The notes under the pieces are model-generated. The model did no database searches, was not told the DNA's origin, and saw only the letters and a program-made list of their open reading frames with translations. Positions 40,115-50,575 of a stretch of 64,000 nt of DNA are shown piece by piece. Each line of letters opens with the position of its first letter. The first letter of the stretch is position 1. Source of the stretch: Undibacterium umbellatum (GTDB lineage Bacteria > Pseudomonadota > Gammaproteobacteria > Burkholderiales > Burkholderiaceae_D); contig NZ_JACOFX010000007.1 of NCBI RefSeq assembly GCF_014284125.1, positions 186,001-250,000 of the forward strand, written 5' to 3'. The position numbers and the translations under genes were made by a program.

Positions 40115-43100
40115 TTACAAATTCGGTGCCAGCCAGCGTTCTACTTCATCCTTGGGCACATTACGGCGTTCTGCCATATCAGTGACCTGATCATCGGCAA
40201 TTTTACCTACGCTGAAATACTTGGATTCAGGATGGGCAAAGTAAAAGCCTGAGACTGCCGCACCCGGTATCATGGCCCATGATTCAGTAATGTACATCTC
40301 TATTTCTTCACACTGCATTTGCTTGAACATCTCGGTTTTGACCGTATGTTCCGGGCAGGCCGGGTAGCCAGGTGCAGGGCGTATGCCTTTATAGTTTTCC
40401 TTGATCAGCTCTTCATTGGAGAGGGCTTCATCGGCGACATAGCCCCACAAGTCTTTGCGTACGCGTTCATGCAAGTATTCGGCAAAGGCTTCGGCCAGGC
40501 GGTCGGCCAAAGACTTCAGCATGATGCTGCTGTAGTCATCATGGGCATCTTCAAAGCGCTTCTCATACTTTTCTATACCCAGGCCAGCGGTCACCGCGAA
40601 CATGCCTATATAGTCTTTGATGCCACTGTCTTTCGGCGCGATGAAATCAGACAGGCACTGGTTAGGCCTCTGCACGCCATCAATGATGGGCTTCTCGGTT
40701 TGCTGGCGCGTGCCGTAATAGGTTAGAGCCACCTGACTTCGGCTGTCGTCAGTATAGATTTCTATATCGTCGTCATTGACGGTATTGGCGGGCAGCAGGG
40801 ACACCACACCATTGGCTGTCAGCCAGCGGCCTTCTATGATCTTTTTCAGCATGGCCTGGCCTTCGGCAAATACCTTGGTCGCTGCTTCGCCGACGACTTC
40901 ATCGGTCAATATGGCCGGGAAAGGCCCTGCCAGATCCCAGGTCTGGAAGAACGGGCCCCAGTCTATGTAATTGGCGATGGTCGCGAGATCAATATTCTTG
41001 AACAGGCGGCGACCGATGAACTTGGGTTTGACCGGCGCATTGCTGCCAGTGAAGTCCACTTTCATTTTATTCGCACGTGCTTGCGCCAGCGTGACCATGG
41101 GCGTGGCTTTTTTATTCGCATGCTGGGTACGGATGCGGTCATAATCACTACCGAGTTCAGCGATGTACTGATCACGGCTTTCCGGCGTCAGCAACGATTG
41201 AGCTACCGACACAGAGCGAGAGGCATCGGCTACATACACCACCGGGCCTTCATAGTTAGGTGCAATCTTCACTGCAGTATGGGCGCGGCTGGTGGTGGCA
41301 CCACCGATCAGCAGCGGGATCTTGAGCATGCGGAAATGTGGGTCACGCTGCATTTCTTTGGCGACGTAAGCCATCTCTTCGAGGGACGGCGTGATCAGCC
41401 CGGACAGACCAATGATGTCGGCATTCTCCGCCTTGGCCTTGGCCAGGATTTCAGAGCAGGGCACCATCACACCCATGTTGACCACTTCAAAATTATTACA
41501 CTGCAAGACCACGGTAACGATGTTCTTGCCGATGTCATGCACATCACCCTTGACGGTGGCGATGACGATCTTGCCCTTGGGCTTATTGTCGCCACTGCGT
41601 TTCTTTTCTTCTTCAATATAGGGGATTAGATGCGCGACCGCCTGCTTCATGACACGGGCAGATTTCACTACCTGCGGCAAAAACATCTTGCCCTGACCAA
41701 ACAAGTCGCCGACGATATTCATACCCGCCATCAGCGGGCCTTCAATGACCTGGATAGGGCGGCCACCCGCGTTCATGATGGCGGCACGGGCTTCTTCGGT
41801 ATCTTCGACAATCCAGTTGGTGATGCCATGTACCATCGCATGTGACAGACGTTTTTCTACCGGTTCATTGCGCCATTCCAGCGTGGCTTCTTCTTTCTTG
41901 CCACCGGCTTTTAGCGTGGCAGCGATTTCTATCATGCGCTCAGTCGCATCTTCACGACGGTTCAGCACCACGTCTTCAACACGCTCGCGCAATTCGGCAT
42001 CAAGCTCGCTATACACGCCAACCATACCGGCATTCACGATACCCATGGTCATGCCAGCCTTGATGGCGTGGTACAGGAATACCGTGTGGATCGCCTCACG
42101 TGCCGGGTCGTTGCCGCGGAAAGAGAAACTCACATTCGAGACACCACCACTGATCTTGGCACCAGGCAGGTTCTTATGTATCCAGGCTGTCGCTTCGATA
42201 AAGTCAACGGCGTAATTATTGTGTTCTTCAATACCGGTGGCGACCGCAAAAATATTCGGGTCGAAAATGATGTCTTGCGGATCAAAATCCAGACTATCTA
42301 CCAGCAGGCGATAAGCGCGTTCGCAAATTTCTATCTTGCGCGCATAGGTATCGGCCTGACCTTTTTCATCAAAGGCCATGACGATGACTGCGGCACCATA
42401 ACGCTTGCACAGCGTAGCCTGCCGCAGGAATTCTGCTTCGCCTTCTTTCATGGAAATCGAATTGACGATGGCCTTGCCCTGCACGCATTTCAGGCCCGCT
42501 TCGATGACCGTCCATTTCGACGAATCGATCATGATGGGCACGCGGGCGATATCCGGTTCGGATGCGATCAGGTTCAGGAAGCGTGTCATCGCCGCCAGTG
42601 AATCCAGCATCGCTTCATCCATGTTGATGTCGATGACTTGCGCGCCGTTTTCTACCTGCTGGCGAGCAACCGCCAGCGCTTCATCGTATTGCTCATTCAG
42701 AATAAGGCGGGCGAAAGCTTTTGAGCCAGTGACGTTGGTACGTTCACCGACGTTGACGAACAATGAGCTTTCGTCAATCGTGAAAGGCTCCAGGCCAGAC
42801 AGTCTCATCGCTGTCGGCACAGTTGGGATTTCACGCGGTTTGCGGGTTTGCAGTATGTCGGCAATTGCCTTGATATGGTCAGGCGTGGTGCCGCAACAGC
42901 CACCGGCGATATTGATGAAACCAGCTTCGGCAAATTCTTTTAGCAGGGCTGAGGTATCGGCGGGCAATTCATCAAAGCCGGTGTCGCTCATGGGGTTGGG
43001 CAAACCGGCATTCGGGTAAATACAGACAAAGGTGTCGGCAATCTTCGACAGCTCCTCTGCATACGGACGCATCAGGGCTGCACCCAGGGCACAATTCAGA

Positions 43101-43864
43101 CCTATGGTCAGCGGTTTGGCATGCCGTACTGAATTCCAGAATGCCGGTACGGTCTGACCCGACAGGATACGGCCCGAGGCATCGGTCACCGTGCCAGAAA
43201 TCATGATGGGCAGGCGGGTACCGGTCTCTTCAAAAAACTGGTCAATCGCGAACAAAGCGGCTTTGCAGTTCAGCGTATCAAATATGGTTTCGACCAGCAG
43301 CACATCAGCACCACCTTCAACCAGGCCACGGGTTTGCTCTAGATAGGCGGCCACCAGTTGATCAAAGGTCACATTACGCGCTGCCGGGTCATTGACGTCT
43401 GGTGAAATTGATGCAGTCTTTGGCGTAGGGCCAAGGGCGCCTGCCACATAGCGTGGCTTGTCTGGTGTTGAATATTTATCGCATGCCGCTCGTGCGATTT
43501 TGGCCGAGGCAACGTTCATCTCATAGGCCAGATGCGCCATGTGGTAATCATCTTGCGCTACGGTCGTCGCACCAAAGGTATTGGTTTCTATGAGGTCAGC
43601 ACCGGCGGCCAGGTATTTCTCATGGATTTCGGCAATCACATGTGGCTGGGTCAGAGACAACAATTCGTTGTTGCCCTTGACGAAGAGTTCACGCACTGTT
43701 TCAGGGCCAGTAAAGTCTTTGAATCGCTCGCCGCGATAATCTTCTTCCGTCAGTTTATAGCGCTGTATCATGGTACCCATGGCCCCATCGAGTATCAGGA
43801 TGCGCTTTTGCAAAATCTCGCGCAAACGGGTTTCAAGGGCAGATACTGGCAGGGTCGTAGTCAT
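40115..43864 (-). CDS. metH: Cobalamin-dependent methionine synthase MetH
   Basis: MetH transfers a methyl group from 5-methyltetrahydrofolate to homocysteine through cobalamin, making methionine. The 1249-residue length equals that of a complete enzyme. The homocysteine domain has [15 protein letters not shown] and the zinc-binding cysteines in IGLNCALGA and [10 protein letters not shown]. The folate domain has [14 protein letters not shown] and [16 protein letters not shown]. The cobalamin domain has [10 protein letters not shown], whose histidine is the lower axial ligand, and [13 protein letters not shown]. The C-terminal activation domain has [15 protein letters not shown], which binds S-adenosylmethionine. 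The leader carries a SAM-II riboswitch and terminator, so expression should fall when SAM is high. Confidence 0.97.
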
Positions 43865-43885
43865 GATGTTTACTCACATAAATGC

Positions 43886-43920
43886 AAAAACCCGATCGGC
43901 TTGTGTGCAGGCGGATCGGG
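43886..43920 (-). terminator. Attenuator terminator in the metH leader
   Basis: On the minus strand, CCCGATC (43920-43914) pairs with GATCGGG (43897-43891) and is followed by five T (43890-43886). It lies between the SAM-II aptamer and the metH start, so it is the likely expression platform. Confidence 0.85.
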
Positions 43921-43924
43921 TGAC

Positions 43925-43980
43925 GTCCTTTTAGCAGCACTTATTACGCGCCCGCAATCTGAATCTCAAATCGGCGCAAG
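43925..43980 (-). ncRNA. SAM-II riboswitch upstream of metH
   Basis: The minus-strand leader has the conserved order of the SAM-II aptamer. The 5' strand of P1 GCGCC (43977-43973) is followed by GATTTGA. ATTGC then precedes the 3' strand GGCGC (43952-43948), GTAATAA and the 3' block GCTAAAAGG (43935-43927). These blocks align almost base for base with the SAM-II sequence I remember from marine metX leaders. The P1 helix is perfect. I could not fold the pseudoknot with software. SAM binding should stabilise the pseudoknot and favour the downstream terminator. Confidence 0.85.
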
Positions 43981-43993
43981 AAAGCATAAATTA

Positions 43994-44266
43994 TACGTCA
44001 AATCAAGGGCTTGGGTAGCTGCAGGCAAACTGCTGTCGGGTTTTTGTCATGACTTAAATATCAAAAATGACATGACTGCCCCGTGTAGAATTAAATTTTC
44101 CCAAATTGAAAACTACCTTTGCTAGCCTTAAACTGCTTAACATGGATAAATTCGCAGTTTTTGCTTGCCTGAAAGCAGTAGCAGCTTCAATATCCTGTCT
44201 ATACAATCATTTAAAGGCCGTACTTGTGCAAGCCATCTATTTTTGCCTTTTCGTTATCAAGACCAG
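43994..44266. other. Gap between metH leader and response regulator gene
   Basis: About 270 bases with no recognised gene. It should contain the metH promoter on the minus strand, beyond the riboswitch, and the regulator promoter on the plus strand. I see no clear -35/-10 pair or dyad. Confidence 0.4.
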
Positions 44267-49618: not shown

Positions 49619-50575
49619 TTATGAATCTTTTTTACGGCTCACAAACAAGCTAGCGATGATGGAGCTGCCCAGCAGCACAGCGATGACCATCAATGAAACA
49701 CTGGTGGGCACATGCATCCATTTCACGATGAGCATCTTGATACCGACGAACATCAGGACAAAAGCCAGGCCAAATTTCAGCAAGTGGAAGCGGTCTGCCA
49801 TATCTGCCAGCAAGAAATACAGTGCGCGCAAGCCCATGATCGCGAAGATATTTGAAGTGAAGACAATGAAGGGGTCTGTCGTCACTGCAAAAATCGCTGG
49901 TATCGAGTCCACTGCAAAAATTACATCGGATATTTCTATCAGTATCAGTACCAAGAACAAGGGCGTGAAAACGCGTTTGCCGTTTTCCATGATGCTGAAT
50001 TTTTCTTCATGAAAATCCTTGGTAAATGGCAGCAGCTTCTTTGCCATGCGCAGGACTGGATTGGCTTCCAGGTCTGGTTCCTGCTCTGCTGCTACCAGCA
50101 TGCGCATACCTGTAATCAGCAAGAAAATACCAAACAGATACAGTACCCATGAGAATTGCGTCACTACCCAGCTACCTGCCAATATCATAATGACACGCAT
50201 GATGATGGCACCCAGCACGCCATACAGCAAAACCTTGCGCTGATATTGTGGCGGCACTGCAAAGTGACCAAATATCAGTAGGAAGACAAACACATTGTCG
50301 ACCGACAGGGATTTTTCTATCACGTAACCTGCCAGAAATTCCATGGCCTTGGCGGTCGCTATTTCGCGGCCTACGGTTTCGCTCAGATACACCCACATGC
50401 CAAGGTCGAACAATAATGCCAGGCTGACCCACACCAATGACCATGCCGCCGCTTCCTTGACACTAACTTTGTGGGAGCGTGAACCGCCAAGGGCGAACAC
50501 GTCTACAGCCAACATGAGTAAAACAAAGCCTATAAATACTGCCCACATCCAGGGCTGTGCGACGGAATGGATCAT
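49619..50575 (-). CDS. TerC/Alx-family membrane protein
   Basis: This 318-residue protein has about nine membrane helices. Motifs of the TerC/Alx family are SLSVDNVFVFLLIFGHFAVP (the acidic residue in a helix) and EISDVIFAVDSIPAIFA. Members in E. coli (Alx) handle manganese and respond to alkaline pH; others accompany tellurite resistance or help metalate exported enzymes. It follows the BI-1 gene with a 3-base gap and is presumably cotranscribed. No yybP-ykoY-type manganese riboswitch is seen upstream of the operon. The exact metal is not certain. Confidence 0.88.
   Translation of the reverse strand: MIHSVAQPWMWAVFIGFVLLMLAVDVFALGGSRSHKVSVKEAAAWSLVWVSLALLFDLGMWVYLSETVGREIATAKAMEFLAGYVIEKSLSVDNVFVFLLIFGHFAVPPQYQRKVLLYGVLGAIIMRVIMILAGSWVVTQFSWVLYLFGIFLLITGMRMLVAAEQEPDLEANPVLRMAKKLLPFTKDFHEEKFSIMENGKRVFTPLFLVLILIEISDVIFAVDSIPAIFAVTTDPFIVFTSNIFAIMGLRALYFLLADMADRFHLLKFGLAFVLMFVGIKMLIVKWMHVPTSVSLMVIAVLLGSSIIASLFVSRKKDS

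Follow-up and report, generated by a model that had tools for sequence, protein, structure and literature searches.

A probable SAM-II-class riboswitch with a predicted terminator switch in the metH leader of Undibacterium umbellatum

According to Meyer 2009, the groups in which SAM-II riboswitches occur most often are Alpha-, Beta- and Gammaproteobacteria, and Bordetella bronchiseptica is represented in the SAM-II alignment of Corbino 2005 (PMC1273637). The nucleotides U10-U12, U20, U21, G22, C23 and G42-A47 are given as completely conserved in this class (PMC3764141). A 2022 review (PMC9481103) counts 44 tandem SAM-II arrangements, some of which mix termination and translation. The targets listed for SAM_alpha by Leyn 2014 (PMC4239095) are hom, metA, metX, metC, metW and metY, and the same paper places a SAH riboswitch on metH in Comamonadaceae. 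Among the open-access titles and abstract openings listed by the searches, none placed a SAM-II riboswitch on metH or metK in beta-proteobacteria, which is weak evidence of absence. Barrick and Breaker 2007 already describe terminator-coupled SAM-II elements from beta-proteobacteria, so the arrangement found here is not the unusual one that the original prediction for this DNA had taken it to be.

Layout and class assignment of the metH leader

The window, meaning the whole 64,000-nucleotide stretch analysed here, carries a gene on the minus strand whose ATG start codon lies at 43864. Its product contains the B12-binding and activation domains in a domain search and scores far above cut-off with NCBIfam TIGR02082 and NF007024, which confirms metH as the predicted target. 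The nearest named MetH proteins, among the matches listed, come from Herbaspirillum (87%) and Noviherbaspirillum (85%), in agreement with the proposed betaproteobacterial origin near Oxalobacteraceae. The gene and the elements of its leader are arranged as follows.

40115-43864, minus strand: metH, cobalamin-dependent methionine synthase, 1249 aa (ORF; TIGR02082 1712.8 bits, NF007024 2119 bits)
43990-43995, minus strand: putative -10 box (TATAAT) for metH transcription (sequence)
43923-43980, minus strand: SAM-II-class aptamer, family-model limits (RF00521 and family model R2)
43973-43977, minus strand: P1 5' strand GCGCC (sequence; P1 covaries in a set of 100 distinct family rows)
43966-43972, minus strand: L1 loop GAUUUGA (DNA GATTTGA) with pocket positions U10-U12 (sequence; positions per PMC3764141)
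43954-43961, minus strand: P2 5' strand CAGAUUGC with pocket U20, U21, G22 and C23 (sequence; positions per PMC3764141)
43948-43952, minus strand: P1 3' strand GGCGC (sequence; P1 covariation)
43927-43935, minus strand: P2 3' strand GCUAAAAGG (block GCTAAAAGG) with pocket G42-A47 (sequence)
43903-43940, minus strand: candidate antiterminator, in which the P2 3' strand region would pair with the terminator loop and some of its 5' arm (predicted nascent pairing 0.97)
43886-43921, minus strand: intrinsic terminator ACCCGAUC/GAUCGGGU with U-run (sequence; hairpin -15.9 kcal/mol)

All the SAM-II blocks named in the original prediction, that is the P1 arms, GATTTGA, ATTGC (43958-43954), GTAATAA (43947-43941) and GCTAAAAGG, were found on the minus strand. 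The hairpin and T-run that it had placed directly after the aptamer are equally present as a terminator at 43921-43886, with 8 bp arms (43921-43914 and 43897-43890) and a T-run at 43890-43886 (-). A consensus scan for promoters and terminators listed neither the promoter nor the terminator of the metH leader; the terminator was passed over because the scan allows loops of up to 8 nt and this loop has 16 nt. Transcription of metH is expected to start a few nt 5' of P1, and TATAAT lies 9-17 nt 5' of P1 in 36 of 39 same-genus metH loci. Within the pseudoknot, P2b (GC with GC) is present in the window and near-invariant in the family, hence uninformative by covariation. P2a of the window copy is short, one C-G and one U-G pair by reading; its pairing varies with target class, for example GAC/GUC in metK, as read without a shuffle control. 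GCUAAA of the P2 3' strand is kept in 98/98 parsable family copies. The leader folds somewhat better than its shuffles (z -1.76, 10/200 shuffles as good).

In a cmscan of 43800-44100 against 4227 Rfam families at E <= 10, positions 43987-43911 (-) matched the full-length model of SAM_alpha (SAM-II, RF00521) at 29.2 bits and E 6.3e-5. The only other match was isrK (E 7.3), and SAM-V gave none in this region. The score above the gathering threshold that the original prediction had proposed as a check was not reached, the gathering score of RF00521 being 36 bits, which is a detection threshold and not a property of the RNA; the whole window scanned at gathering score returned no Rfam match. The SAH riboswitch RF01057 is absent from the metH leader, both in the window at gathering score and in 43800-44100 at E <= 10. 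The model for SAM-II long loops (RF01726, gathering score 44) had no match in the window's genome at E <= 0.1 and was dropped as a candidate, with matches in 2/97 family genomes at E <= 0.1 and in 0/97 over cut-off.

The assignment as a SAM-II-class aptamer made in the original prediction is borne out by the RF00521 E-value together with the pocket nucleotides, all of which are present in the window copy at the positions of PMC3764141. In a whole-genome search with RF00521 the window copy was the best of 8 matches (E 3.2e-4), the other 7 lying at E >= 0.84. Family model R2, built from 102 family copies with the window copy among them, gives 58.9 bits and E 1.1e-14, followed by the next window match at E 0.33. 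Among 100 genomes of the order, RF00521 matched 44 at E <= 0.001, with 18 matches over cut-off in 16 genomes. All 18 coincide with places found by the family model R1 (see below), indicating that the window copy and recognised SAM-II riboswitches form one continuous family. At 14 loci with R1 copies, RF00521 at E <= 1 matched 5 (L009 and L010 at 40.6 bits, over cut-off) and missed 9, among them the metX and metK copies of the window's genome and long-loop metH copies, so that the assignment of the missed copies rests on the family models. Taken together, the sequence evidence supports well the assignment of the metH leader to the SAM-II class, and the class points to SAM as the likely ligand.

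Two further observations concern the Rfam scans. At L009, L010, L011, L031 and L050, the Burkholderia sRNA family RF02424 (Bp2_Cand287) gives below-cut-off matches (E 0.0089-0.8) on the strand opposite the element, and is possibly the riboswitch read from the wrong strand. A TerC/Alx family gene (TIGR03718) occupies 49619-50575 of the window. Relatives of this gene are often under a manganese riboswitch; no Rfam family reached cut-off anywhere in the window.

Conservation and covariation of the element

The same-genus set contained 43 genomes, of which 40 had a metH match and 39 gave a readable leader. The element is kept in 37 of these 39 leaders, that is in the window and in 36 of 38 others; 36 of the 37 were found by regular expression and L148 is a one-base variant. 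The two leaders without the element (L144 and L153) had no match with two covariance models; by eye, L144 holds a shortened aptamer remnant with promoter and terminator kept, and L153 is decayed. A terminator stem of 8-9 bp is found in 36/37 leaders, with none found by script in L141. The stem reads CCCGATC/GATCGGG in 33/37, and compensatory forms are seen once each as CCCGGTC/GACCGGG and ACCGATC/GATCGGT, together with one G-U form.

Covariation of P1 in relatives, which the original prediction had named as a check, was found over 100 distinct family rows: 98% of P1 cells are paired, two-sided changes occur in 37 cells against 10.1 in shuffles, and the covariation score was reached by 0/500 shuffles, in an alignment that was itself fitted to a model including P1. 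Of the five measures used, two give a less clear picture: a two-sided change is carried by three of the five pairs (reached by 1/500 shuffles), and further pair types are no more numerous than in shuffles (303/500 reach them). The first pair is G-C in 64 rows, C-G in 29, U-A in 4 and G-U in 1; 33 of the 37 two-sided cells fall on it, most there from metK copies.

Outside the genus, covariance models identified a long-loop form of the element in 5/80 named metH loci, where the motif regular expression gives 0/80. The carriers are Noviherbaspirillum autotrophicum, a Herminiimonas MAG, two Oxalobacteraceae MAGs and a MAG labelled Polynucleobacter. Thirteen further named leaders were inspected by motif search and eye: the aptamer is absent with promoter and terminator kept in Herbaspirillum (L039, L042) and Herminiimonas fonticola (L044), and neither aptamer nor terminator was seen in Massilia, Janthinobacterium (3), Duganella (2) and Rugamonas. 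In the long-loop metH copies L249, L258, L262, L268, L270, L272, L274 and L281, the long L1 contains GUCAAA (by eye), which might base-pair with UUUGA of the pocket and mask it in the SAM-free state.

The terminator and the proposed switch

The metH leader is probably a SAM-II-class riboswitch that works as a transcriptional off-switch, with an antiterminator built from a P2 strand. At low SAM, the P2-forming strand GCUGCUAAAAGG would pair with the terminator loop and some of the 5' arm, and polymerase would read through into metH. At high SAM, the ligand would bind between L1 and P2 and lock the P2 pseudoknot, which would leave ACCCGAUC free to pair with GAUCGGGU and end transcription before metH. 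The antiterminator would exclude the SAM-bound pseudoknot because its pairing uses nucleotides of both P2b and P2a. That SAM turns metH off is suggested by the behaviour of the riboswitch class, and the antiterminator pairing is moderately supported by the predictions below.

Among the copies of 40 family genomes chosen one per genus, terminator-like hairpins of -6 kcal/mol or better follow the aptamer in 21/21 metH, 23/30 metX, 12/13 metZ and 5/32 metK copies. At -10 kcal/mol or better 20/21 metH hairpins are retained, L218 being weak (-6.0 kcal/mol) and without CCCG. In predicted nascent transcripts stopping before the terminator 3' arm, pairing between the P2 3' strand and the terminator region has a probability of at least 0.5 in 44/55 leaders, compared with 22.9 of 55 expected from shuffled regions. 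A narrower terminator region gave this pairing in 41/55 leaders and a value of 0.97 for the window. Over the same-genus leaders it was predicted in 20 of 32 distinct sequences against 14.8 expected, and the 12 without it have longer spacers by eye. The isolated antiterminator stretch of the window (-10.1 kcal/mol) does not stand out from its shuffles (z -1.07, 27/200 as good). Taken by itself, the duplex between the P2 3' strand and the terminator region is stronger than its shuffled versions at p <= 0.05 in 7/55 leaders only, namely 1/20 metH, 0/23 metX and 6/12 metZ, with p 0.14 for the window. Since the leaders are related to one another, the counts given here do not represent independent events.

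The antiterminator considered first was a different one, in which the P1 3' strand GAUUGCGGG pairs with the terminator arm CCCGAUC and SAM acts by holding P1; a similar idea, involving regions 3 and 4, was speculated for the metXZ element (Leyn 2014; PMC4239095). In its favour, as in that of the P2-based switch, stands the enrichment of CCCG in terminator 5' arms, which hold it in 54/56 metH, metX and metZ terminators (energy limit -6) versus 27/294 other terminators (limit -10), a control slightly too high since 3 of its 27 are by reading metH leaders without aptamer, one same-genus and two from named Oxalobacteraceae. AGC also follows CCCG in 12/23 metX and 7/12 metZ terminators versus 3/27 controls, but in 0/20 metH terminators, and the P1-strand duplex is no stronger than in CCCG-holding control terminators (p 0.32); in this analysis the metX rows L259, L276 and L277 carry a wrong aptamer segment. 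Formation of this duplex in the window would cost about 16 kcal/mol (-17.1 versus -32.9 for P1 with terminator), it also loses in the nascent transcript (-13.3 versus -24.0), and its nascent pairing probability reaches 0.5 in 12/55 leaders. With energies and controls against it for the window, the P1-based antiterminator is considered unlikely.

The P2-based off-switch was further weighed against three readings that dispense with SAM-dependent termination. SAM-driven folding might alter access to the metH ribosome binding site, the hairpin being incidental; the metK copies do look translational (a helix of at least 6 bp in 28/32, terminators in 5/32), and for the S. meliloti metA SAM-II a translational component of its action is described (PMC9373788). 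This is improbable for metH, where a terminator-like hairpin follows the aptamer in all 21 copies, the one in L218 being weak, and where the stem covaries within the genus. The aptamer could instead be decayed or no longer regulating, leaving the terminator as a constitutive brake on metH, a state that L144, L153, L039, L042 and L044 resemble by eye in lacking the aptamer with promoter and terminator kept. Retention of the P1, L1 and P2 motifs in the window and in 36/38 other same-genus leaders makes this quite improbable here. Only the score below the Rfam cut-off speaks for a chance similarity or a DNA-level site. Chance similarity is very unlikely in view of the E-value and of conservation in same-genus leaders and across genera, and the compensatory changes in P1 and the confinement of the targets to one pathway leave to either form of this reading a next to negligible probability.

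The wider family and comparison with known systems

The covariance model R1, built from 48 copies, matches 246/294 genomes of the bacterial family at E <= 0.01 and has copies in 39/40 family genomes chosen one per genus. In the order it matched 110/150 genomes (E <= 0.001), and the matches listed there span 41 of the labels f1-f51 given to families. RF00521 applied to 195 family genomes was over cut-off in 2 and at E <= 0.1 in 73; with most copies scoring under that cut-off, the aptamer appears to be largely unannotated in this bacterial family. R1 matches in the 40-genome set numbered 103, of which 102 were aligned and classified by downstream gene: metK 32, metX 30, metH 21, metZ-like 13 and unassigned 6. 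Thus 96/102 copies precede metK, metX, metH or a metZ-like gene, and metH, which had been thought an unusual target, is a common one with 21/102 copies. The metH-leader arrangement is ordinary within the bacterial family. The metZ label is loose, with 7/13 genes at 65-83% identity to the reference and 6/13 at 31-39%; the latter six possibly encode different PLP enzymes that act in sulphur metabolism. Among the six other copies, L291-L293 score at most 23.9 bits and look like chance matches, L226 accounts for two and L216 for one.

The L216 copy (1501-1559) is a good SAM-II-type match of 43.1 bits 5' of an ORF without assigned function, and the 1300 nt downstream hold no match to any of the four reference proteins. 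A tandem pair of SAM-II-type matches occurs in each of L305, L306, L307, L308, L313, L323, L226 and L197; by eye, a terminator mostly accompanies the first copy, the second resembles the metK copies and sits near a start codon, and the downstream genes include a cysteine-synthase-like ORF (L226, named by eye) and ORFs without assigned function. In other families of the order, metH-like ORFs lie 3' of the element in L296, L301, L303, L315 and L321 (by eye). The window's genome has 3 R1 copies at E <= 0.01, before metH (the window), metX (C11:35754-35830) and metK (C37:94898-94956). The metX copy (L188, minus strand) contains a long inserted hairpin and has no convincing terminator, the best being -1.8 kcal/mol. 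The contig of the metK copy also bears a SAH riboswitch over cut-off (L325, C37:63595-63669) before ahcY, a gene identified by eye.

The metK copies differ in layout. Their aptamer ends with GCUAAAGCGUCGC in most copies, followed by GCAGGCUC; its reverse complement is GAGCCUGC, the Shine-Dalgarno region upstream of the ATG. Between the aptamer end and this region, the longest helix has 6 bp or more in 28/32 metK leaders, where 24% of shuffles reach 6 bp and at least 2 of the 28 helices (L245, L266) are out of the expected register. Covarying forms of this masking helix include GCAAGCUC/GAGCUUGC and CGCAGGUUC/GAACCUGCG. Pocket position 10 is G in 32/32 metK copies, and also in L209, L231 and L271 of the family set. 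These features point to a translational switch on SAM synthetase. The metK copy of the window's genome (L189, minus strand) combines the U10 to G change with the Shine-Dalgarno-masking helix. An alternative hairpin GUCGC..GCGAC, seen by eye in metK leaders, would release the Shine-Dalgarno sequence. Among the open-access literature listed by the searches, no metK subtype having G10 and a Shine-Dalgarno-masking helix was found.

A unifying reading is somewhat favoured, in which one aptamer family would act by termination before metX, metZ and metH and by ribosome-binding-site masking before metK, would be identical to the orphan metXZ RNA, and would include the metK G10 form as a distinct SAM-II variant, possibly tuned to higher SAM so that SAM synthesis shuts last. 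If true, a single SAM sensor with two kinds of output would serve both methionine synthesis and SAM synthesis, and the orphan metXZ RNA would gain a ligand class. The window copy alone is one more SAM-II riboswitch and its value is as an entry to this regulon, which is of greater interest than the single copy.

Compared with known systems, the window copy shares with SAM-II RF00521 (Corbino 2005; PMC1273637) the P1 hairpin, the H-type pseudoknot layout of P2, the pocket nucleotides, a promoter just before P1, a terminator after P2 and a target in the methionine pathway. It differs in its score below the gathering score, its metH target and its short P2a. The SAM-II core is likewise common to RF01726, whereas the loops are longer there. 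The SAH riboswitch RF01057 is found on metH in Comamonadaceae (Leyn 2014) and in the window's genome stands before ahcY instead. The metXZ element of Leyn 2014 (PMC4239095) has six conserved regions, of which 1:4 and 2:6 pair as a pseudoknot with a terminator downstream, a description in words that fits the window copy; for the beta groups, Table 1 of that paper places it upstream of metX and metZ. It was presented as a new element, with no ligand named, and metH and metK are not among the targets given in the portions of that paper considered here. The metX and metZ leaders of the 40-genome set match R1, as does the window copy, and by comparison with the text description the metXZ orphan RNA is probably the same element. 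The S. meliloti metZ SAM-II aptamer is predicted to cause termination, with a SAM-dependent lowering of mRNA (PMC9373788), and is thus alike in joining SAM-II to termination; it is alphaproteobacterial and targets metZ, whereas the window copy is betaproteobacterial and targets metH.
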